Source: Larkinella humicola (GTDB lineage Bacteria > Bacteroidota > Bacteroidia > Cytophagales > Spirosomataceae). Taken from it: a stretch of 64,000 nt of DNA. The DNA lies in the NCBI RefSeq assembly GCF_008727875.1, contig NZ_VTWS01000001.1, positions 1 to 64,000 of the forward strand, in the 5' to 3' direction. This document shows, piece after piece, positions 39,886 to 57,829 of this stretch. Below the pieces are notes generated by a model, which saw nothing but the letters and a program-made list of their open reading frames with translations, was not told the origin of the DNA and searched no databases. How positions within the stretch are numbered: position 1 is the first letter of the stretch; the number at the start of each line of letters is the position of its first letter. A program made the position numbers and the translations under genes.

Positions 39886-40025
39886 CAGGTATGTTTGTTG
39901 AATGAACAATTAACAAAATAAACGTGAAAGTAAGCTATGAAATATCGTTAAAAGTGCCAATGATTCATTGAAATGGATAATATGCAAACAATTTAGGCAA
40001 ACTTAATTGTTCCCACAAATCCTAT

Positions 40026-40059: not shown

Positions 40060-40219
40060 GATAAGTGTATTTTTTTCCAAAGCAAGCCGATCATAAAAGT
40101 AAAAATAGAGATGGAGACGCCGGAATGGTATATACGCAATAGACCCGGATTAGGATTTGAAATAGAAACTAAACCGCCCTTCGGATAGTTTTCAGGGAAG
40201 AGTTGAATAAAAAAATGGG

Positions 40220-40585: not shown

Positions 40586-40647
40586 GAGTTAAGAGTTAAG
40601 AGTTAAAAGTTGGCTGACGCACTCACTCTTAACTCTTAACTCTTAAT
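40581..40647. repeat. Inverted repeat of AAGAGTTA units between convergent genes
   Basis: The left arm 40581-40603 and right arm 40625-40647 are perfect 23-bp inverted copies built of the direct unit TAAGAGT repeated about three times. The left arm includes the TAA of the CoA-binding gene. The right arm ends 6 bases before the fabH stop. It can terminate both genes; the repeated unit structure suggests a slippage-prone or mobile origin. Confidence 0.85.
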
Positions 40648-40653
40648 TCCTTG

Positions 40654-41655: not shown

Positions 41656-41676
41656 GAGAAGGGTAAGAGAGGCTGA

Positions 41677-41928
41677 CTACACGCCCTGAATCGAAAACGT
41701 GTATTCTTCCATAATCAGGTTGGCGAGCAGTTGGCGGCAGGCCGTATCGACGGTTTCCTTCGCTTTTTCCTCCGACTCCGCTTCGACTTCCAGGCGGATG
41801 TGTTTGCCAATCCGGACGTCTCCCACCGAATCGATGTGGAGGTTGTGCAGTCCCAGTTTTACGGCTTTGCCCTGTGGATCCAGAATTTCCTTCTGGGGCA
41901 TTATGTCAATTTCAGCAACGTATTTCAT
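41677..41928 (-). CDS. purS: Phosphoribosylformylglycinamidine synthase subunit PurS
   Basis: 83 aa from ATG 41928 (MKYVAEIDIMPQKEILDPQG). The open frame continues 23 codons upstream into the end of pssA but those residues do not fit. The pattern KEILDPQGKAVKLGLHNL then VGDVRIGKHIRLEVEA is typical of PurS, the small subunit that bridges PurQ and PurL in step four of purine synthesis. The purQ and purL genes are not in the window. Confidence 0.9.
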   Translation of the reverse strand: MKYVAEIDIMPQKEILDPQGKAVKLGLHNLHIDSVGDVRIGKHIRLEVEAESEEKAKETVDTACRQLLANLIMEEYTFSIQGV

Positions 41929-41977
41929 GTTTGAAGCAGATAAGCAGTGCGGGAATTTAGGGGTAAAATTCAATCCG

Positions 41978-42685
41978 TCACGGCTTGTTTTTAGCAAAGT
42001 ATGAGATCAAAATGTATAAAGCGATCACCAGCGGTACGGCTGCGAAGTGCAAAAATAACAACAGAAACGCTGATCCGATCAGAAAACTGAATTTTATGCG
42101 GTTTTCACGCCAGCCGAAGGATTTGAATTTGAACGCCAGCAAGGGCAATTCGGCCACCATCATGAACGAGAAAACAATTAGCAAAAACAGCGTGATGGGG
42201 TTTTGCCACAGAAAAGCAAACTGCGGCTGGTAGTGGGCCATGAGCGGAAAAGCCGCAATGAAGATGGTGTTGGCCGGAACCGGCAGGCCAATAAACTGGT
42301 CAGACTGGCGGGTGTCGATGTTGAAATTGGCGAGTCGCAAGGCAGCTAAAACCGCAATGGTGAAGGCCAGATACGACCAGTTTCCCAGTCCCAGCGACCA
42401 CAGGGCCTGATAAACCAGCGTGGCCGGCAAAACACCGAAGGTCACGACGTCGGCCAGCGAATCCAGTTCTTTCCCAAACGGCCCCGACGCATGAACCAGC
42501 CGGGCCACAAAACCGTCGCCAAAATCGAGCACACCGGCCAGCAGAATGAGCCAGGCCGCCGTGTCGGAATGGCCACGCAGGGTCATCACCAAACCGATGC
42601 AACCGCACAGCAGGTTGCCGCAGGTCATGGCATTGGGCAGGTGGCGGAGCAATTTCGTAATGGATGTGATGGCTAAGTGAAACAC
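41978..42685 (-). CDS. pssA: CDP-diacylglycerol-serine O-phosphatidyltransferase
   Basis: 235 aa. The CDP-alcohol phosphotransferase motif is intact: Asp54, Asp57-Gly58, Ala61-Arg62, Gly71, Asp75 and Asp79. About six hydrophobic segments follow the usual pattern. The enzyme makes phosphatidylserine, the precursor of phosphatidylethanolamine, at the inner membrane. The start is GTG at 42685; other possible starts inside the first 20 residues cannot be excluded. It is 49 bp upstream of purS on the same strand. Confidence 0.9.
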   Translation of the reverse strand: MFHLAITSITKLLRHLPNAMTCGNLLCGCIGLVMTLRGHSDTAAWLILLAGVLDFGDGFVARLVHASGPFGKELDSLADVVTFGVLPATLVYQALWSLGLGNWSYLAFTIAVLAALRLANFNIDTRQSDQFIGLPVPANTIFIAAFPLMAHYQPQFAFLWQNPITLFLLIVFSFMMVAELPLLAFKFKSFGWRENRIKFSFLIGSAFLLLFLHFAAVPLVIALYILISYFAKNKP

Positions 42686-42786
42686 GCTCGTCCGAAAACG
42701 ATGGTGTAAAGCTACACGAGAGAGTTGTCAACTCAAATTTTGGCCGAAAGAAAAACGAATCGGTGTGTGCGGTTTTCAGAAACCGG

Positions 42787-43776
42787 TCACATCGACATCT
42801 TGCTGATGCCTTCCTGTCGGCTGTTCTGGTAAAACGAAATCTGGAGGATCAGCCGGTGGGCAATCTGCTGCAGGGCCTCTTCGGTGAGAAATCCCTGGTG
42901 GGCCGTCAGCAACACCCGCGGGTGCGTCCGCAAGCGGTTGAGCAGGTCGTCGGTGATGGGCTGGGCGGAAAAATCCCGGTGAAACCACTTCTTCTCATTC
43001 ACATACACATCAGCCGCATACCCGGCCAACGCATTGGCATCCAATGCATCCAGAATCGCTGCGGTATCGACCAGTCCACCCCGGCTGGAGTTGACCACCA
43101 TGGCCGTCGGTTTCAGTTGCGACAGGGCCGGTGCGTTCAGAAGCTGCCGGGTTTGGGCGTTCAGGGGGCAATGCAGCGAGATCACATCGGATTCGGCCAG
43201 GAGCATTGGCAACGCAACGTAACGGACGCCCGCGTTGAGAAGAGGCTGATGAGGTTTGATATCGAACGCGAGCACCCGACAGCCAAACCCCAGCATGATC
43301 TGGCAAAAAGCCTGGCCAATATGCCCCGTGCCGATTACCCCAACGGTTTTTCCGTGTAAATCCTGGCCCGTTAGCCCATTGATCGAAAAATTGCCTTGCT
43401 GAACCCGTTCGTGCGCCTGCGGAATGTGCCGAACCAGGCCCATCAGCAGCGCAACGGCGTGTTCGGCAACGGAATAGGGCGAATAGCCCGGCACGTGTAA
43501 AACCGTGATGCCCAGTTCGTCAGCGGCTTCCAGATCGACGTTGTCCAGCCCCACGCAACGCATGGCAACCAACTGAATACCCAGCGATCGGAGCGATTCC
43601 AGAACCGGTTTGCTCAAATCATCTTCCACGAAGGCACAAACCGCTTCGTAACCGCTGGCCAGGTGACTGGTTTGTTCGGTCAGAATTTCGTCGATAAACG
43701 TGATGGTATGGTGCGCCTGGTACCGGATAAACCAGTCCCGTTCGTAAGCGGCTGTACTGAAAAAGGCAATTTTCAT
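42787..43776 (-). CDS. D-2-hydroxyacid dehydrogenase (D-lactate dehydrogenase-like)
   Basis: 329 aa. The N-terminal MKIAFFSTAAYERDWF, the Rossmann loop VGVIGTGHIGQAF, the substrate Arg in NSSRGGLVDTAA, the Glu and the catalytic His in LLTAHQGFLTEEAL show an NAD-dependent D-isomer-specific dehydrogenase. The close resemblance to D-lactate dehydrogenase (GYSPYSVAEHAVALLM) supports pyruvate/D-lactate interconversion. A TACTTTTG promoter box lies 17 bases upstream of the ATG, leaving a very short leader. A fermentation or redox-balance role is inferred. Confidence 0.88.
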   Translation of the reverse strand: MKIAFFSTAAYERDWFIRYQAHHTITFIDEILTEQTSHLASGYEAVCAFVEDDLSKPVLESLRSLGIQLVAMRCVGLDNVDLEAADELGITVLHVPGYSPYSVAEHAVALLMGLVRHIPQAHERVQQGNFSINGLTGQDLHGKTVGVIGTGHIGQAFCQIMLGFGCRVLAFDIKPHQPLLNAGVRYVALPMLLAESDVISLHCPLNAQTRQLLNAPALSQLKPTAMVVNSSRGGLVDTAAILDALDANALAGYAADVYVNEKKWFHRDFSAQPITDDLLNRLRTHPRVLLTAHQGFLTEEALQQIAHRLILQISFYQNSRQEGISKMSM

Positions 43777-43793
43777 AGCTCGTGGATTTTACG

Positions 43794-43801
43794 CAAAAGT
43801 A
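43794..43801 (-). promoter_or_regulatory. Candidate -7 promoter box (TACTTTTG)
   Basis: Perfect TAnnTTTG on the minus strand, followed by CGT, 17 bases before the ATG of the dehydrogenase gene. Transcription would start about 10 bases before the coding region. Confidence 0.5.
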
Positions 43802-43915
43802 CGGCAATCAGAGCCGTTCCTCCATGACTTTCCTCACTTCGACGAATGACCCTGATTGCCACAATTCCGGTTAAGAAAGTCGTTTGCTTAGTCCAACTAC
43901 CGAACGGGCCACGAT

Positions 43916-44767
43916 TTATTCCGACAAAGCCGCAAAATCCTCGTCCGACAACACAATCCGGTCGGCGGCCAGATTCTCGTTCAGGTGATCGAGTGAGCTG
44001 GTCCCGGGAATCAGAAGGATGTTGGACGAGCGTTTCAGTAACCACGCCAGGGCGATTTGCGCCGTTGTGGCCTCGTGTTTTTCCGCGATTTCCCGAATTT
44101 TGGCGGCCAGTTTCTTCGGCCCGGATGCCAGCGGATACCAGGGAATAAACGCCATGCCGCGTTGAATGGTGTAATCCAGAACGGCTTCCCACTTCCGGTT
44201 TCCGAGGTTATACAGGTTTTGGACCGATACGATCGGCAGCACTTTTTCGGCGCGTTCGATCTCCTTAATGCCGACTTCCGACAAACCGACATGGCGAATT
44301 TTCCCCGCCTGAACGGCTTCCACGACCGGCCCGAGGGTTTCTTCAACCGGGATGTCGGGGTCAAACCGGTGAAGTTGCCAGAGGTCGATGCGCTCCAGTT
44401 TCAGCCGCTGCAGGCTGCCGTCAATCGCCTGCCGGATGTGATCCGGGTCGCCGTTGGTCACCCACTGATTGGGGCCGGTTCGGTCAAAACCGCCTTTGGT
44501 GGCAATGATCAGTCCTTGTCGATACGGATGCAGGGCATCGGCAATCAGTTTTTCATTGGTATGCGGGCCGTACGAATCCGCCGTATCGATAAAATTCACG
44601 CCCGACTCCACGGCTTTTTGCAAAACCGCCTTTGCCGTTTCCCGGTTCGGCGCATCACCCCACACCCCAAAACCGGTCAGTTGCATGCCGCCGTAGCCCA
44701 AGCGGTTGATTTCCAGATCGCCCCCCAGTTTGAAAGTTAATGCTGCTTGTTCTGTTGTATTGCTCAT
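43916..44767 (-). CDS. Aldo/keto reductase
   Basis: 283 aa from ATG 44767; the frame runs 11 codons further up but the start MSNTTEQAALTFKL fits better. The (beta/alpha)8 barrel shows the Asp of the tetrad in NFIDTADSYGP, Tyr in the same segment, Lys in IIATKGGF and His in LWQLHRFDP, with the NADPH-binding block IPGTSSLDHLNENLAA. It reduces aldehydes or ketones; the substrate is unknown. Upstream of the 2-hydroxyacid dehydrogenase on the same strand, 115 bp apart from its promoter. Confidence 0.9.
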   Translation of the reverse strand: MSNTTEQAALTFKLGGDLEINRLGYGGMQLTGFGVWGDAPNRETAKAVLQKAVESGVNFIDTADSYGPHTNEKLIADALHPYRQGLIIATKGGFDRTGPNQWVTNGDPDHIRQAIDGSLQRLKLERIDLWQLHRFDPDIPVEETLGPVVEAVQAGKIRHVGLSEVGIKEIERAEKVLPIVSVQNLYNLGNRKWEAVLDYTIQRGMAFIPWYPLASGPKKLAAKIREIAEKHEATTAQIALAWLLKRSSNILLIPGTSSLDHLNENLAADRIVLSDEDFAALSE

Positions 44768-44917
44768 GGTATGGTTTGTTGATTCATTCCACCACAACAC
44801 AAGATCAATCCGGTTCTCGTTCCAATTCAGGGCGAAAAATTAGTCTGTGACCTTTCCAACCAAACGACAAAACCGGGAGTCCGTCTATCTGATATGACCT
44901 CCATTTTCCCCGATCCG

Positions 44918-45607
44918 ATGAAAAATACCCTACTCTTAACCCCGTTTCTCTTTGCATTCCTCACCGGTTGCCTAACAGACCCTTCGGTTAAACCCGATCC
45001 AGTCACCGTGTGCCCACCACCGGCCGTGATCCTTAGCCGTGACAGCATTGCGAGTGGAAGTTACCTCGGTCTGACGATCAACGATGAGGCTGAGAAAGCG
45101 TATGCCGGGCTTCAAACCCTCCGGCAAACCGCGGGCGTCACCTTTTTAAACGTCGTCAGCAATAACACGTCGGACCTTGCGCAGTTGCGTGAACGCCTTC
45201 CTCTCTACCATTACATTTTGCTGGACCAGAACCAGGGAACCGACTCCGGTGTTCAGATCACCATCGAAGCCGATCAGGTTAAAAGCATTTATCTGAACAG
45301 TGGCCGACAGCTCTCGCAGTGGCCTGCGAACTTACAAGCGGCCTCTTCCATCCGGCTCGGAGACGCCACGGGCTCGCTGTATACCAAACTTGTCAAAATC
45401 AGAGCGGTGCGTGCGTATGCCAATAAATTTGAGCGCATCTCACTTCTAACAAAAAATCTCGCTGCGGCTTATGATCCAGCCATGCGCCAATCGCCACAGT
45501 GGTATTTCACCTATAATCCCGGCGCTGGCCTGATGGACGAAGTTCAGGTACATTTCAAAGACGGTAAGATCAGCTACATTTCCACCATTCGCTACAAAAT
45601 GGATTGA
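44918..45607 (+). CDS. Lipoprotein of unknown function
   Basis: 229 aa from ATG 44918 (MKNTLLLTPFLFAFLTGC), Cys18 in the lipobox LTGC. The upstream ATG 44894 is possible but would make an atypical signal sequence. The mature part has two beta-rich halves (ITIEADQVKSIYLNSG near 125 and VQVHFKDGKISYISTIRYK at the end). No family is recognised. A strong terminator follows at once and also serves the convergent hydrolase gene. Confidence 0.7.
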   Translation: MKNTLLLTPFLFAFLTGCLTDPSVKPDPVTVCPPPAVILSRDSIASGSYLGLTINDEAEKAYAGLQTLRQTAGVTFLNVVSNNTSDLAQLRERLPLYHYILLDQNQGTDSGVQITIEADQVKSIYLNSGRQLSQWPANLQAASSIRLGDATGSLYTKLVKIRAVRAYANKFERISLLTKNLAAAYDPAMRQSPQWYFTYNPGAGLMDEVQVHFKDGKISYISTIRYKMD

Positions 45608-45624
45608 AAGGCAGTTTTGTGGTT

Positions 45625-45675
45625 AAAGTCAGCCTCCTGATCGAAAAATACGCTCTCGATCAGGAGGCTGACTTT
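45625..45675. terminator. Bidirectional terminator between convergent genes
   Basis: A perfect 19-bp stem (45625-45643 and 45657-45675; core GTCAGCCTCCTGATCG) with a 13-base loop, flanked by AAA/TTT so that either strand gives a T tail. It separates the lipoprotein gene from the convergent hydrolase gene, whose stop begins at the next base. Confidence 0.85.
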
Positions 45676-46671
45676 TTACCTTACAAATTTCAGCACTTCG
45701 GCCACAAACCGGTCGGTTTCCGATATAAACGGCTCGTGGTAGGATTGGTCGAAGGTGACAAACGTCGGTGCGGTTTTCGTCAGCAAATCCCGGGTTTCGT
45801 AGCCAATTTCGATGGGAACCACACCATCTTTTTTGCCCCAGAACAGGGCCACCGGAATCTGGATATTTTTCAGAAACGCGCTCCGGTCATATCCCCGAAT
45901 GGTGGTTTCACCGTATTCTGCATACGCTTTCGGATGCGAAAACTGGGCCAGAGCGGTGTTGGGTGAGGCAAATAAATAATTGATGACAAACTTCTTATCG
46001 TCGTAAATCGAAACCGGATTACCGTCCAGGTCGAGCATTCGTTTGTAGAGTTCGGGCCACTCGTAGGTTCCCAGATTCTCGGCGGTTACGGGCCGTGCCT
46101 GAACGTACTGCTCGATGGCGGTATTGTTCTGCTGGCGGGCTGCACGCAACACCCACTCCCGCATCTGTACCAGCCAGCGGTAGGTCGAAAACGTGCCATT
46201 GACGGCGATCAACCCGCTGACCAGCTTCTGGTTGTCATTGGTCGTCAGAAATTGCCACGCCAGTTCAACGCCGAAACTATGCGCCACCAGATAAATTTGG
46301 GTGTTGGGATATTGCTCTTTCAAAAGCTTCACGACGTAATACGCATCTTCGCCGAACTGCTCATACGTCAACGTTTTCACATCCACTTTTCCCGACGACG
46401 ACCCGGCAATCCGCTGGTCCCAATACGCCACGGCCACGTCGTTTTCCAGCCCTTTGAGGTAATGCCGGTAACACATGGCGCAGTCGCCGGGACCGCCGTG
46501 CAGAAACAGCACCAGTTTGTTCGACGCCAGGTTGCCCCGCACCCAGATGGGCATATCCGCGCCTTTGTGCCGTAAATAAAGTATCCGGTCGGTCGTCGTT
46601 GCGTCGTCTTTTTCGCAGGCAACGAGCAAAACCGCCAGCCATAGAATCAGGTATGTATAGATCGTTTTCAT
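45676..46671 (-). CDS. Alpha/beta hydrolase lipoprotein (prolyl-aminopeptidase-like)
   Basis: 331 aa from ATG 46671. A lipobox places the lipid on Cys19 (VLLVACEK). The S33-type alpha/beta hydrolase fold shows the oxyanion loop LFLHGGPGD, the YWDQRIAGSS strand, the nucleophile elbow VAHSFG, the Asp in ALFWGKKDGVVP and a late His (DQSYHEPF). Such proteins cleave N-terminal prolyl or other small ester/amide substrates; the family is too wide to say more. Its start overlaps the stop of the outer-membrane gene upstream by four bases (ATGA type), so the two are translated from one transcript. Confidence 0.85.
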   Translation of the reverse strand: MKTIYTYLILWLAVLLVACEKDDATTTDRILYLRHKGADMPIWVRGNLASNKLVLFLHGGPGDCAMCYRHYLKGLENDVAVAYWDQRIAGSSSGKVDVKTLTYEQFGEDAYYVVKLLKEQYPNTQIYLVAHSFGVELAWQFLTTNDNQKLVSGLIAVNGTFSTYRWLVQMREWVLRAARQQNNTAIEQYVQARPVTAENLGTYEWPELYKRMLDLDGNPVSIYDDKKFVINYLFASPNTALAQFSHPKAYAEYGETTIRGYDRSAFLKNIQIPVALFWGKKDGVVPIEIGYETRDLLTKTAPTFVTFDQSYHEPFISETDRFVAEVLKFVR

Positions 46672-47252
46672 TTGTTTTTCAGCGGTTTGCGAATACCACA
46701 TTCGATTCCAAAGCGCATCAGGCTTGACGCGTTGTAGGGCCGTTGCTGCATCAGGTTTAACTTAGCATACCAGGCGAGGGAGCGGTTTTTCCGGATCGAC
46801 AGATCACGCCCGAAACCCACCGAAACCGTCGGCAGATAAGCCCCGCGACCAGCCATTTTGACCCGCCGAAAGCCGCCGTTTTCATCGACTTCGAAGGTTT
46901 TTCCCGCCAGAAAATACCGTAAATACGCGTTGGAAAGCCCGACTTCAAAGGTGCCACCCCGCCGACCCGTCCGCTGGTAGGCCAGTTCAGGCGAGAGAAT
47001 GACGCCCATGTGGTTGTCGGGGTGATTGTACACCGCCAGTCCGGGTGTCAACAGAAATTCTTTCCGCGCCGAATTGCGGGCTTTGGTGCGGGAAATGAGC
47101 GGGTATTCGTAGGCCACTTTCAGCCCGTAATGAGTGACGGTTTCGCCGAAATAAGCCACCCGCAGTTGCTGGGCGCTGGCTTCCGGATCGGCCAGGGCGA
47201 CGAAAACCGCCAGAAGCAGGAGCCCGATCCTGGAGTAACGTTTCATGTTCAT
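46668..47252 (-). CDS. Putative outer-membrane beta-barrel protein
   Basis: 194 aa (ATG 47252 or 47246). A signal peptide ends at EASAQQ; the remainder alternates aromatic and polar residues in strands (LKVAYEYPLI, MGVILSPELAYQ, AWYAKLNLMQQ), as in small barrels of the outer membrane. The strands are long enough for eight to ten. No family is identified. Translationally coupled to the hydrolase lipoprotein. Confidence 0.65.
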   Translation of the reverse strand: MNMKRYSRIGLLLLAVFVALADPEASAQQLRVAYFGETVTHYGLKVAYEYPLISRTKARNSARKEFLLTPGLAVYNHPDNHMGVILSPELAYQRTGRRGGTFEVGLSNAYLRYFLAGKTFEVDENGGFRRVKMAGRGAYLPTVSVGFGRDLSIRKNRSLAWYAKLNLMQQRPYNASSLMRFGIECGIRKPLKNK

Positions 47253-47362
47253 GGTATGGTGTTGTTTATCAAGCCATAAAGGTCGTTGATCGGAGGCAGA
47301 TGGAAGGTGTCAGAAGATGCGAAAAAACGATCAGAAGGCGACAGAAAACGCCAAACGAGCCC

Positions 47363-47370
47363 TACCTTTG
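47363..47370 (+). promoter_or_regulatory. Candidate -7 promoter box (TACCTTTG)
   Basis: Perfect TAnnTTTG, 29 bases before the flavin-reductase ATG, followed by ACGG. No -33 TTG is clear at the usual distance. Confidence 0.45.
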
Positions 47371-47398
47371 ACGGGCTATTTTAAAAACCAGACCGATT

Positions 47399-48043
47399 AT
47401 GCACCTGACCAAAGCAGACCTTGAAACCACTGAGCGAATCAAACGTCTGAATATCATCAACTCCGTCACCGGCATCAAACCGGCCAACCTCATCGGATCG
47501 GTTTCGAACGAAGGGCAATCCAATCTGGCCATTTTTAGTTCGGTGATTCATTTGGGGAGCAATCCCGCCCTGCTGGGGTTCATCCTGCGGCCCGACCGGG
47601 AAGCGGGGCAGCATACCTACGAAAACATTCTGGAAACCGGTTTTTATACCATCAACCACGTTCATGAATCGTTTGCGGAACAGGCTCATTACACCTCCGC
47701 AAAGTTCAAACGGGACGAGTCGGAATTTGACAAATGCCGCTTCACGGAAGAATACCTTTCCGGTTTTAAAGCGCCTTTTGTAAAAGAAAGCAAGTTGAAA
47801 CTGGGCCTGAAGTTTTTGCAGGGCATTCCGATTGAAGCCAACAACACGATGCTCATCATCGGCGAAATCGAACAGTTGATCGTGCCGGACGAAGCCGTCG
47901 ATGTGCAGGGACATATTGACCTGAGCCACGTAGACGATGTGGGCATTTCGGGGCTAAACAGCTATTACAAACTGGCCAAGTTCGCCCAGTTTCCGTATGC
48001 CCGCCCGCAGAACTTACCCAATTTTTCCGGAGAAAATGATTAG
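47399..48043 (+). CDS. Flavin-reductase-like FMN-binding protein
   Basis: 214 aa. The split-barrel flavin reductase domain is visible: VTGIKPANLIGSVSNEGQSN (FMN phosphate site), FSSVIHLGSNPALLGFI, the ENILETGFYTINHV strand and the dimer region with HIDLSHVDDVGISGLNSYY. Such proteins reduce or hold FMN for a partner oxygenase or act as flavoredoxins. It is followed with no gap by the DUF2256 gene (stop TAG 48041-48043, ATG 48044). Confidence 0.85.
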   Translation: MHLTKADLETTERIKRLNIINSVTGIKPANLIGSVSNEGQSNLAIFSSVIHLGSNPALLGFILRPDREAGQHTYENILETGFYTINHVHESFAEQAHYTSAKFKRDESEFDKCRFTEEYLSGFKAPFVKESKLKLGLKFLQGIPIEANNTMLIIGEIEQLIVPDEAVDVQGHIDLSHVDDVGISGLNSYYKLAKFAQFPYARPQNLPNFSGEND

Positions 48044-48184
48044 ATGAAAAAGCAGGATTTACCCACAAAACTCTGCCCGGTTTGTGGAAAACCGTTTAGC
48101 TGGCGAAAAAAATGGGAAACCGTCTGGAGCGAGGTGAAATATTGCAGTGAACGATGTCGGCGAAACAAAAATACCGGTTTGTAA
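48044..48184 (+). CDS. DUF2256 small zinc-ribbon-like protein
   Basis: 46 aa, starting at the base after the flavin-reductase stop. It reads [20 protein letters not shown]..., with CPVC (Cys11, Cys14) and later YCSERCRR (Cys34, Cys38), the two Cys pairs and basic tail of DUF2256. The Cys pairs should bind zinc. DUF2256 proteins are often found next to cryptochrome/photolyase-type or flavoprotein genes in other bacteria; here the flavin protein just upstream fits that pattern (inference). The contiguity shows one operon. Confidence 0.85.
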
Positions 48185-48196
48185 GACGCTGCTCCT

Positions 48197-48841
48197 TCAG
48201 CCGTTCCAAACTACACCGGCGGTATTGGCCCGGTTTCTTCGCGATAGCCACCACTCCACAAAAACCAGATTCGGGATCCAGCACAGCCAGGCGACAATCG
48301 GATACGCCATTGAAAACGGCAGGTGAAAAACCGCCAGCTCGACGGGTAAAATGATTCGGAGTGTCACCGCCGACAGGGTGGCCGCGTAACTGCGGAACAT
48401 CCACTCCTGGTGGCTGCGAATCTGGCCCTGGCGGATGGCCCGGTAGGCCCGGAACGTCGTGTAAAACCAGGCCGTAGCCAGACCGGCAAAACCCACAGCC
48501 GCCACCCAGCCCGTGCTGGCAAACCAGGCTGCGCAGAATGCGGCCACGCTCGCTACCAGGATGCTGAACACGTAGAGTTTCCCCAGTCGCCGGTGTAACC
48601 CGACCCGGCGCTGGCGGAGTTGGCGGGAGAATTGAAACGGCCCCAGACTCAGCGCAACAGCACCCAGACCAACGTGGGTGAAGAAGACCGTTCGCCAGAA
48701 CAGGTTGCCCAACGGCTTGTTGGTGAGAAAACCGGGTTGGTAGCCCGGCAGAAAATAGGCCAGGGCATAGAGTGCCACCCCGAAAATCAGGAAATACCCT
48801 AACCCGGTGGCAACCTTGCTGAAGAGCGTTTTCAGAAGCAT
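48197..48841 (-). CDS. DUF2306 membrane protein
   Basis: 214 aa with about six hydrophobic segments (about 10-32, 50-68, 92-110, 115-130, 148-170, 175-195). The DUF2306 signature is present: FFTHVGLGAVALSLGPFQF, HRRLGKLYVFSI and a conserved SHQEWMFRSYAATLSA block. The His residues could bind haem or a metal, as proposed for related membrane proteins, but nothing is proven. Convergent with the DUF2256 gene (12-bp gap). Confidence 0.8.
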   Translation of the reverse strand: MLLKTLFSKVATGLGYFLIFGVALYALAYFLPGYQPGFLTNKPLGNLFWRTVFFTHVGLGAVALSLGPFQFSRQLRQRRVGLHRRLGKLYVFSILVASVAAFCAAWFASTGWVAAVGFAGLATAWFYTTFRAYRAIRQGQIRSHQEWMFRSYAATLSAVTLRIILPVELAVFHLPFSMAYPIVAWLCWIPNLVFVEWWLSRRNRANTAGVVWNG

Positions 48842-48891
48842 TGTGTTTTCTTAAATTACGGGTGGCAGGTTCAAATTTGTCGGGTTGTGCT

Positions 48892-49005
48892 GGTTCAGAT
48901 TTGCAATCTGAACCCACTCTGTCGCGGATTTGCAATCCGCAGTAAGTATGGATGCTGCGGATTGCAAATCCGCGACAGAGTGGGTCGAGATTGCAAATCT
49001 CGACC
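48892..49005. repeat. Four tandem hairpins with TGC/GCA loops (inverted-pair array)
   Basis: Four short hairpins lie in a row: GGTTCAGATT-TGC-AATCTGAACC (48892-48914), GCGGATT-TGC-AATCCGC (48924-48940), GCGGATT-GCA-AATCCGC (48957-48973) and GGTCGAGATT-GCA-AATCTCGACC (48983-49005). The inner two also form a perfect 31-bp outer inverted repeat (48912-48942 with 48955-48985). The outer two differ from each other at two positions on each side of the loop, but each change is matched by its partner base so that both stems stay perfect. The array lies between two minus-strand genes. Confidence 0.85.
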
Positions 49006-49010
49006 AGCGA

Positions 49011-49412
49011 TCACCCCCCCATGTGCGAATCGTTGTTGATGTACTCGAATTTATGGTTCCAGACCAACGCAATCTGCGTAGCGCGCTGGCGGGTTAGCTC
49101 GGCATTGGTTCCCTCAAAATGTTCCGTAAGCGTTTCTGAAAATAGCTTCAGCCACCGCTCAAAATGGTCGAGCGTCAGCGTATGTTGCTGATTGATGAGC
49201 AGATGGGGCCGAAACGGATGACCGTGGTAGGCGTCGTTGCCCAGAATGATGTTTTCCCAGAACGCGTACATTTTGGGTAAATGCTTCGCCCAGTCGACGT
49301 GGGCGACATCGGTAAAAATGGGGCCGATGAAGTCGTCGGCCTGTACTTTTTCATAAAATGAATCCACCAAAAACCGGATGGCTTCCGGTGAATCCAGCGT
49401 GCGTTTGCTCAT
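49011..49412 (-). CDS. Group III truncated haemoglobin
   Basis: 133 aa from ATG 49412 (a TTG gives one more residue). The 2-on-2 globin pattern is present: FLVDSFYEKVQADDFIGPIF, WAKHLPKMYAFWENIILG, then GHPFRPHLLI with the probable proximal His, and LFSETLTEHFEG in the C-terminal helices. Such proteins bind O2 or NO; roles in NO detoxification or respiration have been proposed. The ArsC/Spx-like gene is 22 bp upstream on the same strand, so they are probably co-transcribed. Confidence 0.88.
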   Translation of the reverse strand: MSKRTLDSPEAIRFLVDSFYEKVQADDFIGPIFTDVAHVDWAKHLPKMYAFWENIILGNDAYHGHPFRPHLLINQQHTLTLDHFERWLKLFSETLTEHFEGTNAELTRQRATQIALVWNHKFEYINNDSHMGG

Positions 49413-49434
49413 CAACTCCCGGTTTTATACGTTA

Positions 49435-49782
49435 CTACGTTGAGAACACATTTTCGTAGACTTCCGGTTTAAACCCGAGTGCAATAATCTGATTTTCTGC
49501 TTCGATCAGCGGTCGGCGAATCACCGACGGCTTGTCGATCATCAGCGTGATGGCGTCTTCCATCCGGGTTGGTTTTTCGGCCTCGGGCAGCTTTTTCCAG
49601 GTTGTTCCGGCGCGGTTCACCAGTTCTTCCCAGGGCTTCTGCGTCAGCCACTGTTCAATCGTTTTCCGGTCGATGCCCTGTTTTTTGTAGTCGTGAAACT
49701 GGTACGCAATGCCGTGTTCAGCCAGCCAGACACGGGCTTTTTTCACGGTATCGCAATTCGGAATGGCGTAGAGGGTGTACAT
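49435..49782 (-). CDS. ArsC/Spx-family thioredoxin-fold protein (YffB-like)
   Basis: 115 aa. The short ArsC fold starts with LYAIPNCDTVKKARVWLAEHG, a single active-site Cys at residue 10 as in YffB (not the CxxC of Spx), then YKKQGIDRKTIEQW and KPSVIRRPLIEAENQIIALGF. YffB-type proteins have no proven arsenate reductase activity and may use glutathione-like thiols. A TACTTTTG box is 20 bases before the ATG. Upstream of the truncated haemoglobin gene. Confidence 0.85.
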   Translation of the reverse strand: MYTLYAIPNCDTVKKARVWLAEHGIAYQFHDYKKQGIDRKTIEQWLTQKPWEELVNRAGTTWKKLPEAEKPTRMEDAITLMIDKPSVIRRPLIEAENQIIALGFKPEVYENVFST

Positions 49783-49802
49783 GAATGGCGTTTATTGAGC
49801 CG

Positions 49803-49810
49803 CAAAAGTA
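49803..49810 (-). promoter_or_regulatory. Candidate -7 promoter box (TACTTTTG)
   Basis: Minus-strand TAnnTTTG followed by CGG, 20 bases before the ATG of the ArsC/Spx-like gene. Same core and almost the same distance as the box before the 2-hydroxyacid dehydrogenase. Confidence 0.5.
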
Positions 49811-49931
49811 GCGAATTTGCGGGTTGGAATCAGCGGTTTTGGAGAGTAGTTTGGCGGGGCGTTCCCCTTTCAGTAAAAGCTCATCGAACCACCGCGACGG
49901 GACTTTCCCGCACAGAAACGAACCCTTTGCC

Positions 49932-52787
49932 ATGAAATGTATTCCGGTTTCTTATCACCATTCGGCGGTGATATTTTTTTTTAGTATCTTCTTTTGCCAG
50001 ATATCCTTTGCGGTTCCAACCGATGTAAAGCCCGTTCATCTTCGGACGGAATACAAACTGAATCCGGTTGTGGATGCAACGACTCCCCGTTTAAGCTGGG
50101 AGCTGACGTCGGCAATCCGGGGTCAGCTCCAAACCGCCTACCAGATTATGGTGGCTTCGTCGCCGGTGTTCTTAGCCGCCGACAAAGCCGACCTCTGGAA
50201 CTCCGCCAAACAACCGGGCCGCGCCACCAACCAGATCGAGTATGCCGGAAAACCGCTCTCCGCCCGGACGGTTTGTTACTGGAAAGTTCGGAGTTGGGAC
50301 AAAAACGGCCAGCCGGGTCCGTGGAGTGCCCCCGCCCGCTGGGAAATGGGTTTGCTCGATCCTTCCGACTGGAAAGCGGAATGGATCGGGAATGATCTGA
50401 CAGCTCTGGGCAAAGGGAAGGTGTATCATTTACCACCAGCCCCGTTTTTCCGGAAAGAAACGACCCTGAAAGCGCCTGTTAAACGGGCCCGCTTATACGT
50501 CACCTCATTGGGTTTATACGAATTCCAGATCAACGGAAAACGGGTTGGGAACGATTACTTTATACCAGGCTGGACGGATTACAACAAGCGGGTTTATTAC
50601 CAGACGTATGACGTCACAGCCAATTTAAAAGCGGGCAAAAATGCACTCGGCGCTATTGTTTCAGAAGGTTGGTATGCCGGGTATCTGGGCTACGCGTTGC
50701 TGATTGGCAACCCCGTCGTGAAAAATTTCTACGGCGATGTGCCCCTGCTGAAAGCACAGCTCGAAGTGGAATATACCAATGGACAAAAAGAAACGATTGC
50801 AACGGATCAAACCTGGAAAACGAACCACGGCCCGATCCTGGAAGCAGACATTTTAAATGGAGAAACCTACAACGCCAATCTGGAATTTGAGAACTGGAGC
50901 CAAAGCGGTTTTGCCGATGCGAACTGGAAGAACAGCACCGTTTATCCAGACAAACCGGAGCGGAAACTAGAGACCTATCCCGGCAATCCAATTCAGGTTT
51001 TTCAGGAATTAAAATCAAAAACCGTCACTCCAAAATCAGGGGGACGCTACCTTTTTGACCTGGGGCAAAATTTTGCCGGCGTGGTGCGGCTGCACGTCAA
51101 AGGAAACAAAGGCGATACGATTCGCTTAAAATTTGGCGAAATGTTATTTCCGAATGGGGAAATCATGACGGAAAATTTACGGAAAGCACGCGCAACCGAT
51201 ACGTACATTTTAAAGGGCCGAAAAGACGGTGAAACGTGGACGCCTAAATTCACGTACCACGGTTTTCAATACGTTGAAGCGACCGGTTTTAAAACCGCTC
51301 CCAGCCTGGATGCCATCACGGGAATCGTGCTGAGTTCGGCCACTCCGCAGGCCGGTTCGTTTGAAACGGATAGCCCATTGATCAACAAGCTCTACCAAAA
51401 CATCGTCTGGACGCAGCGTTCGAATTATTTTGATATTCCGACGGATTGCCCGCAGCGCGATGAACGACTGGCCTGGACGGGCGATGCGCAGGCCTACATC
51501 AAATCTGCCACCTTCAACAACGATATTGCGGCCTTTTTCACCAAGTGGCTGGTGGATTTAAACGACGCCCAGCGGGCCAATCAGGCGTATCCCTTGTATG
51601 CCCCCGCGCCCAGTGTTCGGAAAACCGATACGTATTCGCCCGGCTGGTCCGAAGCAGGTATTGTTTGCCCCTATATCATTTATAAGACCTACGGCGATAC
51701 CCGCGTGATCCGCAAGTTCTGGCCCAATATGGTCGCTTACCTCCAGTTTATGGAAGCAAAGAGCAACGGCGAATACGTTTATAAAGAGCGTAGTTTTGAA
51801 GACATTGCCCCTAAAGGCGGATACGGTGACTGGCTTTCCGTCGGCAAAAAAACACCGCCCGATTTGCTGGCCTCGCTGTATTATGGCTATGTGGCTTCGT
51901 TGATGGCCGAAATGGCCAAAGCGATTGGCAAATCCGACGAAGCCGCTCATTTTGAAGGTATTTTTACGAAAATCAAACAAGCTTTTTTGAAACATTATAC
52001 GGATTCAACCGGCAAGTTTAAAACGAACAGTGCCGCGTATGGCGATGGTGAAGGCTACGTAGATGGTACGATGGGTTTTGACGGTCATACGCAAACGGCG
52101 TATGCCAACGCCATTTACATGCACATGCTGACGCCGGAACACGATCAGAAAGCCGGGGACTGGCTGATGGAACTGATCAAAGCAAATGACAATAAACTCG
52201 CAACCGGTTTTTTAGGGTTAAAACCTTTGCTGCCCGCACTTTCCAGTACGGGAAACTCACAGGAAGCTTACCGATTGCTATTGAGTACCGAATATCCGTC
52301 CTGGGGTTTTGAAGTGGTCAACGGGGCCAATACGATCTGGGAACGCTGGAACAGCTACATCAAAGGCAAAGGATTTGAAAATAATTCCGGAATGAATTCA
52401 TTTAATCACTATGCTTTTGGCTCCGTCAACGAATGGTTATTTGGCCATGCGGCCGGTATCAAAGTGGGCGAAGCCGGGTATAAAACGATTATGATTCGGC
52501 CGGAAATTGCCAGCGAGGGCATCCGTTCCGTGAAAGCGACGTACCATTCCATCAGCGGCCTCATCGAAAGCGCCTGGAGAAAAACCGGTTCAACCCTTAC
52601 CCTGCAAATGACGATTCCCGTGAACACCACGGCAACGGTTTTTATCCCGACTACCAATCCCGCCACGGTTTTAGAATCGTCGAAATCGCTGAAAACGAAT
52701 CCGGCGATCACCGTGAAGGAATTTAAAGACGGGTATTTACAACTTGAAATCGGCTCCGGCCCGTATCATTTCAAGTCCCAAAATTAA
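49932..52787 (+). CDS. GH78 alpha-L-rhamnosidase, secreted
   Basis: 951 aa from ATG 49932; the frame extends 36 codons up but the chosen start gives a signal peptide (hydrophobic about 11-27, ending ISFAVP). The order is the usual one for Bac_rhamnosid proteins: an N-terminal fibronectin-like domain (LRTEYKLNPVVDATTPRLSW, YWKVRSWDKNGQPGPWS), two beta-sandwich domains, then the (alpha/alpha)6 barrel with DCPQRDERLAWTGDAQ (general-acid region) and the late WERWNSY with the catalytic Glu, and a C-terminal beta domain. It removes terminal rhamnose from plant glycosides or polysaccharides in the periplasm. The hydrolase at 52831 follows closely. Confidence 0.93.
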   Translation: MKCIPVSYHHSAVIFFFSIFFCQISFAVPTDVKPVHLRTEYKLNPVVDATTPRLSWELTSAIRGQLQTAYQIMVASSPVFLAADKADLWNSAKQPGRATNQIEYAGKPLSARTVCYWKVRSWDKNGQPGPWSAPARWEMGLLDPSDWKAEWIGNDLTALGKGKVYHLPPAPFFRKETTLKAPVKRARLYVTSLGLYEFQINGKRVGNDYFIPGWTDYNKRVYYQTYDVTANLKAGKNALGAIVSEGWYAGYLGYALLIGNPVVKNFYGDVPLLKAQLEVEYTNGQKETIATDQTWKTNHGPILEADILNGETYNANLEFENWSQSGFADANWKNSTVYPDKPERKLETYPGNPIQVFQELKSKTVTPKSGGRYLFDLGQNFAGVVRLHVKGNKGDTIRLKFGEMLFPNGEIMTENLRKARATDTYILKGRKDGETWTPKFTYHGFQYVEATGFKTAPSLDAITGIVLSSATPQAGSFETDSPLINKLYQNIVWTQRSNYFDIPTDCPQRDERLAWTGDAQAYIKSATFNNDIAAFFTKWLVDLNDAQRANQAYPLYAPAPSVRKTDTYSPGWSEAGIVCPYIIYKTYGDTRVIRKFWPNMVAYLQFMEAKSNGEYVYKERSFEDIAPKGGYGDWLSVGKKTPPDLLASLYYGYVASLMAEMAKAIGKSDEAAHFEGIFTKIKQAFLKHYTDSTGKFKTNSAAYGDGEGYVDGTMGFDGHTQTAYANAIYMHMLTPEHDQKAGDWLMELIKANDNKLATGFLGLKPLLPALSSTGNSQEAYRLLLSTEYPSWGFEVVNGANTIWERWNSYIKGKGFENNSGMNSFNHYAFGSVNEWLFGHAAGIKVGEAGYKTIMIRPEIASEGIRSVKATYHSISGLIESAWRKTGSTLTLQMTIPVNTTATVFIPTTNPATVLESSKSLKTNPAITVKEFKDGYLQLEIGSGPYHFKSQN

Positions 52788-52830
52788 GTGCTCCAATGAA
52801 CAACCCAATCTCTCTAAACCAACTCCCACC

Positions 52831-54114
52831 TTGAAAAACCTGCTCCTCGTTCTGTTTCTGGGCGTCAGCCTTCTGACCCACGCTCAGCCAACCACCGATG
52901 CCTTTCTGCCCGGTGACCTTCTGCCCGACGCCCCCGAGCTGGCCCCGCGCGGCCCCCACGCCGTTGGTGTTCGAACCTTGAAACTCATTCACACGGCGCA
53001 GGTCGATGTGCTGCATACCAAAGAAGGCAAAAGTCCGCTGTATGACCGGCCCTTGACGGTGGAAGTCTGGTATCCCGCCAAAATACCGGCGGGAAAATCG
53101 CAACTCGTCACCTACGAAGACGCGCTGGGCCGCGCCAACGATCCCAAACGCCCGCTGGTGCCGTTTACGTTTGGCGGCCGGTCCTTGCGTGAAGCCGATC
53201 CCGATCCGGCCGGGGGTGCCTATCCGCTGGTTATTGTGTCGCACGGGTATCCGGGTTCGCGGCTGTTGCTGACGTATCTGACGGAAAATCTGGCGTCAAA
53301 AGGCTACGTCGTGGTCGCCATTGGCCACACCGAATCGACCTATCAGGATCTGGCCGGTTTTCAGAGTACCCTGCTCAACCGCTCGCTCGACGACCTGTTT
53401 GTGCTGAACGAAATGGCGCGGCTGGGTGCCAAAAATTCCAACAGTTTTCTGAGCGGTTTGGTCAATACCGACAATACCGCCCTAATCGGCTATTCGATGG
53501 GGGGCTACGGCGCGCTCAATGTGATGGGCGCCGGGTATAGCGCGCAGGCGGTTAAGTTCTTCGGTCAGTTGGCGGGGGGCAGCACGGCCCTGCAAACCCG
53601 CACCCTGAGCGATCCTGGCTACAAAGCCTCGATTGACCCGCGTATCAAAGCTACGGTGGCGTTTGCGCCCTGGGGCATGGAGCGGGGCGTTTGGGATGCC
53701 GAAGGGCTGGCGGGTCTGACCGGGCCGACGTTGTTTGTGGCTGGCAGCAAAGACGACGTTTCGGGGTACGAAAAAGGCATTAAGGCCATTTACGACGGAG
53801 CCGTCAACGCCGACCGGTATTTGCTGACCTACGTCAACGCCCGGCACAACGTGGCTCCTAACCCACCCCCGGCCGCCACGCTGAAACCCGGCCAGCCACT
53901 CGACGATTACCAGCATTTTTCGGAACCGGCCTGGAACGAACGCCGGATCAACAACATCAACCAGCATTTTGTCACCGCCTTTCTGGGCATTCACCTCAAG
54001 AAACTCGACTACGCCAAGTACCTCGATCTGCCGGAAACCGCCACGACCGAACCGTGGGCGGGTTTTAAACCCCGGACGTCGGTGGGGCTGGAAATGCGGC
54101 ATGCCAAGCCGTAG
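52831..54114 (+). CDS. Secreted alpha/beta hydrolase (dienelactone/PET-hydrolase-like)
   Basis: 427 aa from TTG 52831, which starts a good signal peptide ((M)KNLLLVLFLGVSLLTHAQ). The longer frame from TTG 52744 overlaps the end of the rhamnosidase gene and adds no sensible sequence; no ATG is in frame before the signal. The hydrolase shows the oxyanion segment VIVSHGYPGSR, the elbow IGYSMGGYG, an Asp in AGSKDDVSG and the His in NARHNVAP. It may cut esters on plant glycosides, which fits its place 43 bp after a rhamnosidase (inference). Confidence 0.8.
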   Translation: MKNLLLVLFLGVSLLTHAQPTTDAFLPGDLLPDAPELAPRGPHAVGVRTLKLIHTAQVDVLHTKEGKSPLYDRPLTVEVWYPAKIPAGKSQLVTYEDALGRANDPKRPLVPFTFGGRSLREADPDPAGGAYPLVIVSHGYPGSRLLLTYLTENLASKGYVVVAIGHTESTYQDLAGFQSTLLNRSLDDLFVLNEMARLGAKNSNSFLSGLVNTDNTALIGYSMGGYGALNVMGAGYSAQAVKFFGQLAGGSTALQTRTLSDPGYKASIDPRIKATVAFAPWGMERGVWDAEGLAGLTGPTLFVAGSKDDVSGYEKGIKAIYDGAVNADRYLLTYVNARHNVAPNPPPAATLKPGQPLDDYQHFSEPAWNERRINNINQHFVTAFLGIHLKKLDYAKYLDLPETATTEPWAGFKPRTSVGLEMRHAKP

Positions 54115-54199
54115 AGCAGTTGCAATCCACGATAGATTAGGGCTTTGAATGAATTATTTCGTACTTTCGATGGTTCTGAGATAGCTAATTCACGTGCTC

Positions 54200-56089
54200 A
54201 TGATTGAAAGACCCCTGACAGACTGGTTGCCTCTGACGATGAAAGAAGTCGAAAAAAGAGGCTGGGATGAAGTTGATATTGTGCTTGTTTCAGGGGATGC
54301 TTACGTAGACCATCCGGCGTTTGGAACCGCCGTGATTGGCCGCATCATGGAAAGTGAAGGCTTTCGGGTCGCCATTATTGCCCAGCCCAACTGGAAAGAC
54401 GACCTGCGCGATTTCCGGAAGTTTGGCAAGCCCAAATACTTCTTTGGCGTGACGGCGGGTTGTATGGATTCGATGGTCAACCACTATACGGCCAACAAAC
54501 GCCTGCGCTCCAACGACTCCTACACGCCCGGCGGTGAAGCGGGTTTCCGGCCCGACTATGCCACCATTGTGTATACCAAAATTCTGAAAGAAATCTACCC
54601 CGATGTGCCGGTTTTGCTCGGCGGCATCGAGGCCTCTTTGCGTCGGGTAACCCATTACGACTACTGGCAGGACAAGCTGATGCCGTCGATTCTGGTGGAT
54701 GCCGGGGCCGACATGCTGGTGTATGGTATGGGCGAACAACCCCTCCGTGAAATCCTGAAACTGGCGCGGCAGGGCGTGCCGTTTTCGTCGATGCGGAACA
54801 TCAATCAGGTGGCTTTTCTGCACGATGCCAGCACCGAACTGCAAGAGTACAATGAGTGGAGTTCGGTTGAACTGGCGAGCCACGAGGTCTGTCTGGAAGA
54901 TAAAATCAAGTACGCAGCCAACTTCAAAATTGTGGAGGTGGAGTCGAACAAGTGGCAGGCCAACCGGATTCTCCAGAAAGTGGGCGACCAGGTTCTGGTG
55001 ATCAACCCGCCGTTCAAGACGATGGAGGAAGCCGAAATCGACCAGTCGTTCGATTTACCCTACACCCGCCTACCGCACCCGAAATACAAAAAACGGGGGC
55101 CGATTCCGTCCTACGAGATGATCAAGTTCTCGGTCAACATGCACCGGGGTTGTTTTGGCGGCTGTAGTTTCTGCACCATTTCGGCGCACCAGGGCAAGTT
55201 CGTTGCTTCCCGCAGTGAAAAGTCGGTCCTGAAAGAAGTCGAGGAAATTACGAAGCATCCCGAGTTCAAAGGCTACATCTCGGATTTGGGCGGGCCGTCG
55301 GCCAACATGTACAAGATGAAGGGCAAAGACGAGTCGATCTGCGCCCGGTGCCAGAGCCCGAGTTGCATTCACCCGGTGATTTGTTCGAACCTCGACACAT
55401 CACACAAGCCGATGACGGAATTGTATCGCAAAGTGGACGCCCACCCCGCCATCAAAAAGGCATTTGTAGGTTCGGGCGTACGCTACGATTTGCTGGTCGA
55501 TGATTTCAATAAAAACAATCAGGATGGCAACCACGACGAATACATGGAGCAACTGGTTACGCGCCACGTTTCGGGCCGGTTGAAGGTCGCGCCCGAGCAT
55601 ACGTCCGACGATACGCTGCGGGTGATGCGAAAACCGTCGTTCAAGTACTTCAGGCTCTTCAAGGAGAAATACGACAAGATTCAGGAAAAATTCAACCTCA
55701 AGCAACCGCTGATTCCGTACTTCATTTCGTCGCACCCCGGCTGTGAAGAACAGGATATGGCTAACCTGGCCGCCGAAACCAAAGACCTCGGCTTCCAACT
55801 CGAACAGGTTCAGGACTTTACGCCCACACCAATGACGGTGGCCGAAGTGATCTATTATTCCGGGGTTCATCCGTACACGCTGAAACCGGTGAAAACCGCG
55901 AAAACCCGTGAAGAAAAAAAGAACCAGAATAACTATTTCTTCTGGTACAAACCGGAATACAAAAACTGGATTCGCGACCGGCTGACCAAGCTCAACCGCC
56001 CGGATTTGCTCGAACGACTTTTGGGAAGCGCTAAAAAAGAAAGCACCAACAAGTATACCGGGAATTACAACGGCCGGAAGCGGAAGTAA
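54200..56089 (+). CDS. YgiQ-family radical SAM protein
   Basis: 629 aa from ATG 54200 (GTG 54194 is two codons upstream). The N-terminal B12-binding-like fold (VDIVLVSGDAYVDHPAFG, FFGVTAGCMDSMVNHYTANK) leads to the radical SAM core with the cluster Cys at 318, 322 and 325 (CFGGCSFC). Later blocks (KVAPEHTSDDTLRVMRKPSF, QLEQVQDFTPTPMT, YYSGVHPYTLKPV) are typical of YgiQ. The substrate and reaction are not known. It appears monocistronic. Confidence 0.93.
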   Translation: MIERPLTDWLPLTMKEVEKRGWDEVDIVLVSGDAYVDHPAFGTAVIGRIMESEGFRVAIIAQPNWKDDLRDFRKFGKPKYFFGVTAGCMDSMVNHYTANKRLRSNDSYTPGGEAGFRPDYATIVYTKILKEIYPDVPVLLGGIEASLRRVTHYDYWQDKLMPSILVDAGADMLVYGMGEQPLREILKLARQGVPFSSMRNINQVAFLHDASTELQEYNEWSSVELASHEVCLEDKIKYAANFKIVEVESNKWQANRILQKVGDQVLVINPPFKTMEEAEIDQSFDLPYTRLPHPKYKKRGPIPSYEMIKFSVNMHRGCFGGCSFCTISAHQGKFVASRSEKSVLKEVEEITKHPEFKGYISDLGGPSANMYKMKGKDESICARCQSPSCIHPVICSNLDTSHKPMTELYRKVDAHPAIKKAFVGSGVRYDLLVDDFNKNNQDGNHDEYMEQLVTRHVSGRLKVAPEHTSDDTLRVMRKPSFKYFRLFKEKYDKIQEKFNLKQPLIPYFISSHPGCEEQDMANLAAETKDLGFQLEQVQDFTPTPMTVAEVIYYSGVHPYTLKPVKTAKTREEKKNQNNYFFWYKPEYKNWIRDRLTKLNRPDLLERLLGSAKKESTNKYTGNYNGRKRK

Positions 56090-56187
56090 AGCGGTTGCCT
56101 GCTGCAGCCTATTCGTCAGGTAATCCCGAAAAACCGACCTAGCCTAAAGGCCATTTTTGCAGCAGTTTTATGAATTCGATCACCATT

Positions 56188-56353
56188 TTACCCCGAAGGG
56201 GTTTTCTGTCAATAGCTACGCAGGCCCAGTCAGTGGTATAAGCCCCGACAGGGGCGGCCTCAAACACCGAAATAGCCATTAGAACGCCCCGCCTGGGGCT
56301 GAAATGACGAAGAATAAGATGGTCTCTATTGACAGAAAACCCCTCCGGGGTAA
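56188..56353. repeat. Palindromic intergenic element with GC-rich internal hairpins
   Basis: Outer arms 56188-56215 and 56326-56353 are 28-bp inverted copies with one mismatch (core ACCCCGAAGGGGTTTTCTG). Inside are two small hairpins, GCCCC-GACA-GGGGC near 56242 and GCCCC-GCCT-GGGGC near 56286. A minus-strand reading frame of 74 codons lies across the element but looks like a by-product of the palindrome. It fills most of the 308-bp gap 56090-56397 between convergent genes and resembles REP/BIME-type elements. Confidence 0.8.
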
Positions 56354-56397
56354 GCCTGTCCATTGACTTTTCTGCTAAAGATCTTGTCTTAAATGAG

Positions 56398-57648: not shown

Positions 57649-57740
57649 AGAGAGGGTGCTAAAGGAAGAATACCGGGATTGTGCAGGCCAGTAGGCTGGA
57701 AAGTTACAAATCCGGGCGTTGTAAGCACAAAGCGAAATAA

Positions 57741-57815: not shown

Positions 57816-57829
57816 TGGTACCCTACCGA

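Follow-up and report, generated by a model that had tools for sequence, protein, structure and literature searches.

A REPIN-like element of inverted two-hairpin units in Larkinella humicola and its probable link to a subclass 2.6 RAYT

The window analyzed here is a stretch of 64,000 nucleotides (positions 1 to 64,000 of contig NZ_VTWS01000001.1) from the Larkinella humicola genome, which is 7.86 Mb in 20 contigs. Between a bacterial-like globin gene and a gene for a DUF2306 membrane protein lies an element of two inverted 54-nt arms, 93% complementary and separated by a 12-nt spacer (48889-49008; Table 1). It is slightly longer than the 48892-49005 region described in an earlier note on this DNA and its outer ends are GCT and AGC. 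Each arm is composed of GCT, a 10-bp hairpin with a TGC loop, nine unpaired bases and a 7-bp hairpin, again with a TGC loop. The earlier note had reported four perfect hairpins with compensated differences between the first and the fourth, three-base loops that are TGC or its reverse complement and a 31-bp repeat of the inner pair, and all of these are borne out. The loops read TGC, TGC, GCA and GCA, the repeat is a perfect inverted one (48912-48942 with 48955-48985), and hairpins 1 and 4 differ in their stem letters (TTCAG/CTGAA vs. TCGAG/CTCGA) with pairing intact in both.

Table 1. Features of the element and its neighbors in the window; R1 is the covariance model described in the text.
Feature	Position	Strand	Basis or remark
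DUF2306 membrane protein gene (neighbor)	48197..48841	-	ORF; Pfam PF10067; same strand as globin gene
Left two-hairpin unit (REP-type repeat), foot outward	48889..48942	+	inverted repeat; R1 match 48885-48945 (+), E 2.5e-21 (training-set member)
Foot GCT, left unit	48889..48891	+	sequence; GCT before outer stem in 42/52 outer hairpins, other genomes
Hairpin 1, outer, 10-bp stem, loop TGC	48892..48914	+	GGTTCAGATT-TGC-AATCTGAACC; helix 1 covaries
Hairpin 2, inner, 7-bp stem, loop TGC	48924..48940	+	GCGGATT-TGC-AATCCGC
Spacer between arms, 12 nt	48943..48954	.	RAYT gene sits at the equivalent place in the C16 copy
Right two-hairpin unit, inverted	48955..49008	-	inverted repeat; R1 match 48952-49012 (-), E 1.3e-21 (training-set member)
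Hairpin 3, inner hairpin of right unit	48957..48973	-	GCGGATT-GCA-AATCCGC
Hairpin 4, outer hairpin of right unit	48983..49005	-	GGTCGAGATT-GCA-AATCTCGACC; compensated change vs. congener G004
Foot, right unit, read AGC on +	49006-49008		sequence
Bacterial-like globin gene (neighbor)	49011..49415	-	ORF; Pfam PF01152; stop codon 2 nt from element

The element is a real, non-random feature and chance is excluded. The motif GGATTNNNAATCC has two matches in the window where 0.10 are expected, a number that none of 100 shuffles reaches. Folding of the + strand as DNA gives -62.4 kcal/mol (z -16.3) and folding of the - strand as RNA gives -97.7 kcal/mol (z -18.8), both against 200 shuffles. In the DNA and RNA folds the lowest-energy form is a single long hairpin of arm against arm and not four small ones, so that the four hairpins are one of two possible shapes.

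The earlier note described a four-hairpin array, with a genome search for the GGATT-TGC-AATCC unit and a covariation analysis proposed as checks. There are 26 occurrences of the core GATTTGCAATC genome-wide, four of these in the window element, and none of the reversed control. A DNA search of the genome gave 28 rows, many of which are both strands of one place, and the consensus common to the copies is TGCTGGTCGnGATTTGCAATCnCGACCCACTCTGTCGCGGATTTGCAATCCGCA. A covariance model (R1) derived from 13 genomic units retrieves 25 units when the genome is searched at E <= 0.001, and these include the 13 used for training. The array is not unique, and the repeat unit is two hairpins rather than four. 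Among successive neighbors within 250 nt (n = 7), six pairs are + then -, with the feet outward, and one is - then -. Fifteen of the 25 units overlap no ATG-started ORF of at least 120 amino acids by more than 10 nt and ten do, for which reason the label 'extragenic' is not secure.

In the 13 aligned units, 96.4% of 221 pair cells are standard pairs (86.7% in shuffles) and 20 cells are double-changed against 4.9 in shuffles, which do not keep relatedness. Six pairs are altered on both sides, and with the partners slid by one to three columns no more than 47% of the cells pair. In stem 1 five pairs are altered on both sides, and in stem 2 five of the seven pairs are invariant. Copies with broken stems, which the earlier note had counted against its reading, do occur in part, as some copies are imperfect, interrupted or collapsed.

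Two further forms were seen among the copies. A G+C-rich insert of ~16 nt with the core GCCGGGCGACCCCG lies inside unit hairpins, around position 1501 onward, in loci of three congeners (L105, L108, L111, L113, L114, L116 and L118; G003, G004 and G007) and in loci L090, L091 and L093 of the own genome. This core has 18 exact places in six of the nine genus genomes; among the matches listed there are 15 distinct places, and hairpins of the GATTTGCAATC type account for 12 of them, another hairpin for at least one more. It looks like a nested micro-insert. In L101 (G003:C14:250387-250481) and L106 (G007:C1:1211019-1211113) three-hairpin forms are found, where two outer hairpins share one inner hairpin, and these are perhaps half-collapsed doublets.

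Seven Y1_Tnp matches are found in the genome and one of them (G000:C16:135189-135728) is a RAYT of 180 amino acids, the only match to itself in the genome at E <= 1e-10. This C16 protein is above the cut-off of the general Pfam Y1_Tnp profile and scores 99.4 bits as an NCBIfam REP-associated tyrosine transposase (REP_Tyr_transpos, NF047646; cut-off 80), against 35.3 bits as a TnpA-IS200 transposase, which is below the cut-off of 55. The gene is bracketed by a + unit (C16:135084-135144) and a - unit (135798-135858). This layout is that of the window element, inverted with the feet outward, with the gene in place of the 12-nt spacer. A sequence search of solved structures gave no matches and a fold comparison was therefore used instead. 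A confident structure prediction was obtained for the relative L174 (mean pLDDT 87.3). Among solved structures it is most similar to 4er8 (E 8.4e-9), in which a RAYT, taken here to be the E. coli protein, has a REP hairpin bound; the ISDra2 and IS608 transposases come next.

The C16 protein contains the motifs NHVH and FWQ and a C-terminal SS, with a HuH-Tyr distance of 82 (81-84 in 29 aligned relatives). Its Tyr motif is YLHDNP; Y.H.NP is found in all 29 aligned proteins and the exact YIH[QN]NP in 20 of them. For TnpA-REP subclass 2.6, Table 1 and the text of PMC6006769 give NH[LIV]H, WQ, a C-terminal SS, ~179 amino acids, a HuH-Tyr distance of ~82 and YIH[QN]NP. Judged by its sequence, the C16 RAYT appears to fit this subclass in length, in the HuH, WQ and SS motifs and in the HuH-Tyr distance, with a small departure in the Tyr motif (YLHDNP vs. 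the tabulated YIH[QN]NP). A 21-aa insertion between helix C and strand 4 and a 29-aa extension are further marks of the subclass, which corresponds to RAYT group 5 of Bertels et al. According to PMC6006769 its genes occur mostly in Bacteroidetes, and the structures on their flanks are atypical, lack GT[AG]G and have copies elsewhere in the genome.

The other six Y1_Tnp genes were considered as the cognate enzyme. Four are IS200-like with Y..Q..HH, which resembles the mark given for subclass 1.2 in PMC6006769, and two are truncated (L031 and L033); their flanks have other palindromes or repeat arrays and they were thus not taken as such. It can also be seen that these genes, IS200-like or truncated, each adjoin their own palindrome family (L027 1116-1417; L030 1903-2224; L031 1022-1282; L033 1274-1424).

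The association of units with RAYT genes extends to relatives and is seen in many other Bacteroidota. In a family search, 14 of 30 RAYT loci have units beside the gene (E < 1e-3). A set of 80 RAYT loci with proteins 55-71% identical includes Siphonobacter, Pontibacter, Rufibacter, Hymenobacter, Dyadobacter and Bacteroidales bins, as well as some bins labelled Chlorobiota and one labelled Rickettsiales, and on these loci R1 gives 192 matches at E <= 0.05. Positions were counted for the best 150 of the 192 matches, which leaves 145 non-overlapping units when five that overlap a better one are removed, and 138 of them lie at most 450 nt from the RAYT gene. Within these best 150 matches, units are near the gene in 61 of the 80 loci (both sides 40, upstream only 15, downstream only 6) and absent in 19, and the inverted + / - arrangement is found in 34. 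In a Siphonobacter locus (L176, 2001-2540) there is an in-frame stop in the RAYT reading frame with units still flanking it, possibly a decaying gene. Three equal-scoring RAYT matches in G066 were considered as movement of a whole RAYT and rejected, as the copies share 572 bp upstream and lie near contig ends, which suggests a larger duplication or an assembly effect.

From these loci, 72 matches of 60-61 nt were reduced to at most one per strand and locus, with identical ones dropped, resulting in 52 outer hairpins from 37 loci. The foot before the outer stem is GCT in 42, GTT in five, TGT in three and GCC in two, and the loop is TGC or TGT in 40. In a register that was picked for best pairing, which favors the result, 96.5% of the stem cells pair against 71% when shuffled (highest of 500 shuffles 74.8%). 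Double-changed cells number 130 against 36 in shuffles that, here too, do not keep relatedness (highest 54). On the inner side, 50 of the 52 have another stem (5 bp or longer and no more than 38 nt away) and on the outer side 13 do, with 4.8 expected; since R1 was made from 13 units of this genome its matches favor two hairpins, and the 50 inner hairpins are not independent.

Evidence less subject to this bias comes from the 19 R1-negative RAYT loci, of which 18 have a perfect hairpin of at least 7 bp within 300 nt of the gene and 10 have it on both sides. From shuffles 3.3 and 0.2 are expected, respectively, and distant stretches have such a hairpin in 6 of 31 cases. Five of these loci (L232, L234, L239, L243 and L247) show a strong hairpin with a weaker one 26-30 nt away, like the unit here, and an example of an R1-negative hairpin is CCCCTCGTTTGCAACGAGGGG in Paludibacter-type loci. 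Separately, hairpins of the form CCCCTCGTT-loop-AACGAGGGG were seen beside the RAYT gene in L231, L233, L234, L238-L241, L243 and L246, Paludibacter and other Bacteroidales-type bins among them; the layout is as here and the stem letters are different.

Co-occurrence was analyzed in 150 family genomes, an even sample from a larger group, with units at E <= 1e-6 and RAYT at E <= 1e-10. Units are present in 34 genomes, a RAYT match in 73 and both in 23 (Fisher p 0.018). Of the 16 genomes whose RAYT is at least 56% identical, 13 carry units (p 1.8e-7), a count that includes the own genome, and seven of the eight genomes with ten or more units have a RAYT. No RAYT match at E <= 1e-10 is found in 11 of the 34 unit-bearing genomes and no R1 unit at E <= 1e-6 in 50 of the 73 RAYT genomes; units of other sequence exist. 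Within the genus, units are found in five of nine genomes (E <= 0.001) and a RAYT match only in this genome (G000) and in G003, the latter with 45% identity.

Genomes of the genus differ at the window site and at the RAYT site, each of which can be full, single-hairpin or empty, by insertion or loss. At the globin-DUF2306 junction, compared over nine genus genomes, G000 and G004 have the full element. G007 and G003 have one imperfect hairpin joining the outer parts, as expected after a central deletion. G008 and G005 show no element at this junction, the flanks are different in G002 and G001, and the flanks found no match in G006. Hairpin 4 of G004 differs from that of G000 by a compensated G-C to A-T swap at one orthologous site (GGTCGAG/CTCGACC in G000, GATCGAG/CTCGATC in G004). 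The RAYT site holds the gene with its two ends in G000, a single GCTGGTCGCGATTTGCAATCGCGACCAGC in G004, and neither of these in G007. Extra bases lie beside the element at both polymorphic sites, so that no target rule can be read. Central deletion of an inverted dimer is described as giving a double-foot REP in section 12 of PMC6006769, and collapsed REPINs are described as single palindromes in PMC3116915; by analogy, the single double-foot hairpins seen here seem to agree with both descriptions.

Two observations were made next to these sites. Just outside the element, the 15 nt at 48865-48879 nearly repeat the beginning of hairpin 1 (87%), and the G007 deletion appears to end there. A RAYT-free site in G007 (L291, G007:C298, around locus position 1501) reads GACCGCTGGTCAATTC and contains GCTGGTC, the letters of the unit foot and the start of the stem, which perhaps reflects target choice by the foot, or chance.

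Based on these data, the window element is very probably a REPIN-like non-autonomous mobile element, made of two inverted REP-type units with the feet outward and moved as single-stranded DNA by a RAYT. The enzyme would be the one close RAYT of the genome, C16, an HUH/Y1 single-strand transposase of the TnpA-REP subclass 2.6 type. When the DNA is single-stranded, for example as the lagging-strand template, each unit may fold into a foot and two hairpins. We infer that the C16 RAYT would then bind hairpin and foot, cut and rejoin via its tyrosine, and move or copy the doublet, with GCT in the role of GTAG. Such an enzyme would read the hairpin shape, the foot and the loop more than the stem letters, which may be why the stems are kept paired. 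RAYTs that have been tested (PMC8266576) use the palindrome together with the 5' tetranucleotide, and the foot contributes to the choice of the cleavage site; the inverse strand is left unprocessed in the cases mentioned there, and loop positions matter in some systems.

The earlier note had suggested selection on the stem shape rather than on the exact sequence. Pairing is indeed kept well beyond this site, in the genome units as in the outer hairpins of relatives, and this part of the suggestion stands; the context, however, points to mobile DNA, and compensated changes could also be given without selection by templated repair or by exchange between copies. The brackets round the RAYT gene and the presence or absence at orthologous sites argue for mobile DNA and not a small RNA; most likely, the window element is a small mobile element that hitch-hikes, and not an RNA. 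It is improbable that the primary reason for the element is a transcribed RNA structure under selection, either a small RNA or a 3' structure that stabilizes or terminates the globin transcript. Although the RNA fold is very stable on the coding strand of both neighbors, and the element lies between two same-strand genes 2 nt past a stop codon, there is no Rfam match (Rfam 15) at the gathering score in window positions 40000-58000 and none of the 13 terminator-like sites listed for 48000-50000 falls in the element. Moreover, the same junction occurs without the element in two congeners (G008 and G005), and the copies are at unrelated places and cluster at RAYT genes. An effect of the RNA structure as a secondary role is compatible with a REPIN-like element, and an additional effect on the globin mRNA is possible, though this explanation does not need it.

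Long inverted repeats invite templated repair. Another option is that the stems are kept perfect by palindrome-templated mutation and exchange between copies, and not by selection on shape, the element being an inert relic; the units that persist in genomes without a detected RAYT fit such an origin. Yet templated repair would not keep the foot and the loops, and these are conserved across the outer hairpins, which makes this origin very improbable. Still harder to believe is a miniature element of a DDE transposon with terminal inverted repeats, or a pair of operator sites of a regulator, as the inverted arms, short spacer and dispersed copies would allow, since the gene in the bracketed copy is an HUH/Y1 transposase and neither a second sub-terminal hairpin nor stem covariation is expected of such repeats or operators.

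The preferred reading, a REPIN-like element moved by a RAYT, can be compared with known systems. Sub-terminal hairpins are a feature of the IS200/IS605 family. Its members IS608 and ISDra2 resemble the present system in these hairpins (PMC6006769) and, as the fold comparison suggests, in the Y1 HUH transposase fold; here, in contrast, each end carries two hairpins and is an inverted copy of the other, and the C16 protein scores as a RAYT and not as an IS200 transposase. The REPINs of Pseudomonas and enterobacteria, as described in PMC3116915, are likewise inverted REP doublets with a short spacer and a RAYT association, where one long hairpin or separate hairpins are possible, compensatory changes are common and collapsed single palindromes occur. 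They differ in having one hairpin per arm instead of two, the foot GTAG instead of GCT and hundreds of units instead of ~25. The canonical REP, with GT[AG]G at the foot of one hairpin, is not what is found here, where the foot is GCT and each unit has two hairpins. There is also a close likeness to the subclass 2.6 REPtrons, whose genes are also flanked by hairpins without GT[AG]G that have copies elsewhere in the genome (PMC6006769). The main text of that source calls these structures atypical and gives no anatomy, whereas the unit found here is regular, has two hairpins and a GCT foot, and is placed in inverted orientation on the two sides of the gene.

A literature search that did not extend to Bertels et al. 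2017 or to supplementary files found no paper describing this repeat; Additional file 2 of PMC6006769 may contain the motif. What is added here to subclass 2.6 is a regular anatomy, with two hairpins per unit, a GCT foot, inversion round the gene and strong covariation. A REPIN-like element that belongs to a RAYT is an ordinary kind of feature; the form seen here is unusual and has been little described.

One can also ask whether the subclass 2.6 RAYTs use a substrate of their own, the GCT-footed two-hairpin end, such that the gene with its two inverted ends would here be a still-moving transposon and the window element its miniature derivative. We regard this as a tentative and rather unlikely extension. 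If true, a still-moving RAYT transposon, unlike the domesticated and vertically inherited RAYTs, would be a living form of the proposed ancestral state of REPINs, and, should the gene-bearing form still be mobile, the transition from an autonomous single-strand transposon to a RAYT with its REPIN would have a living example. Among RAYTs, it is subclass 2.6 whose repeats required identification by eye and have been called atypical. The regular unit (GCT foot, covarying outer hairpin, linker of ~6-13 nt and inner hairpin, inverted round the gene) provides a concrete substrate to test, and a model of the R1 type finds its copies genome-wide. For readers of genomes there is also a caution, that compensated intergenic hairpins in Bacteroidota may be transposase substrates and not RNAs.
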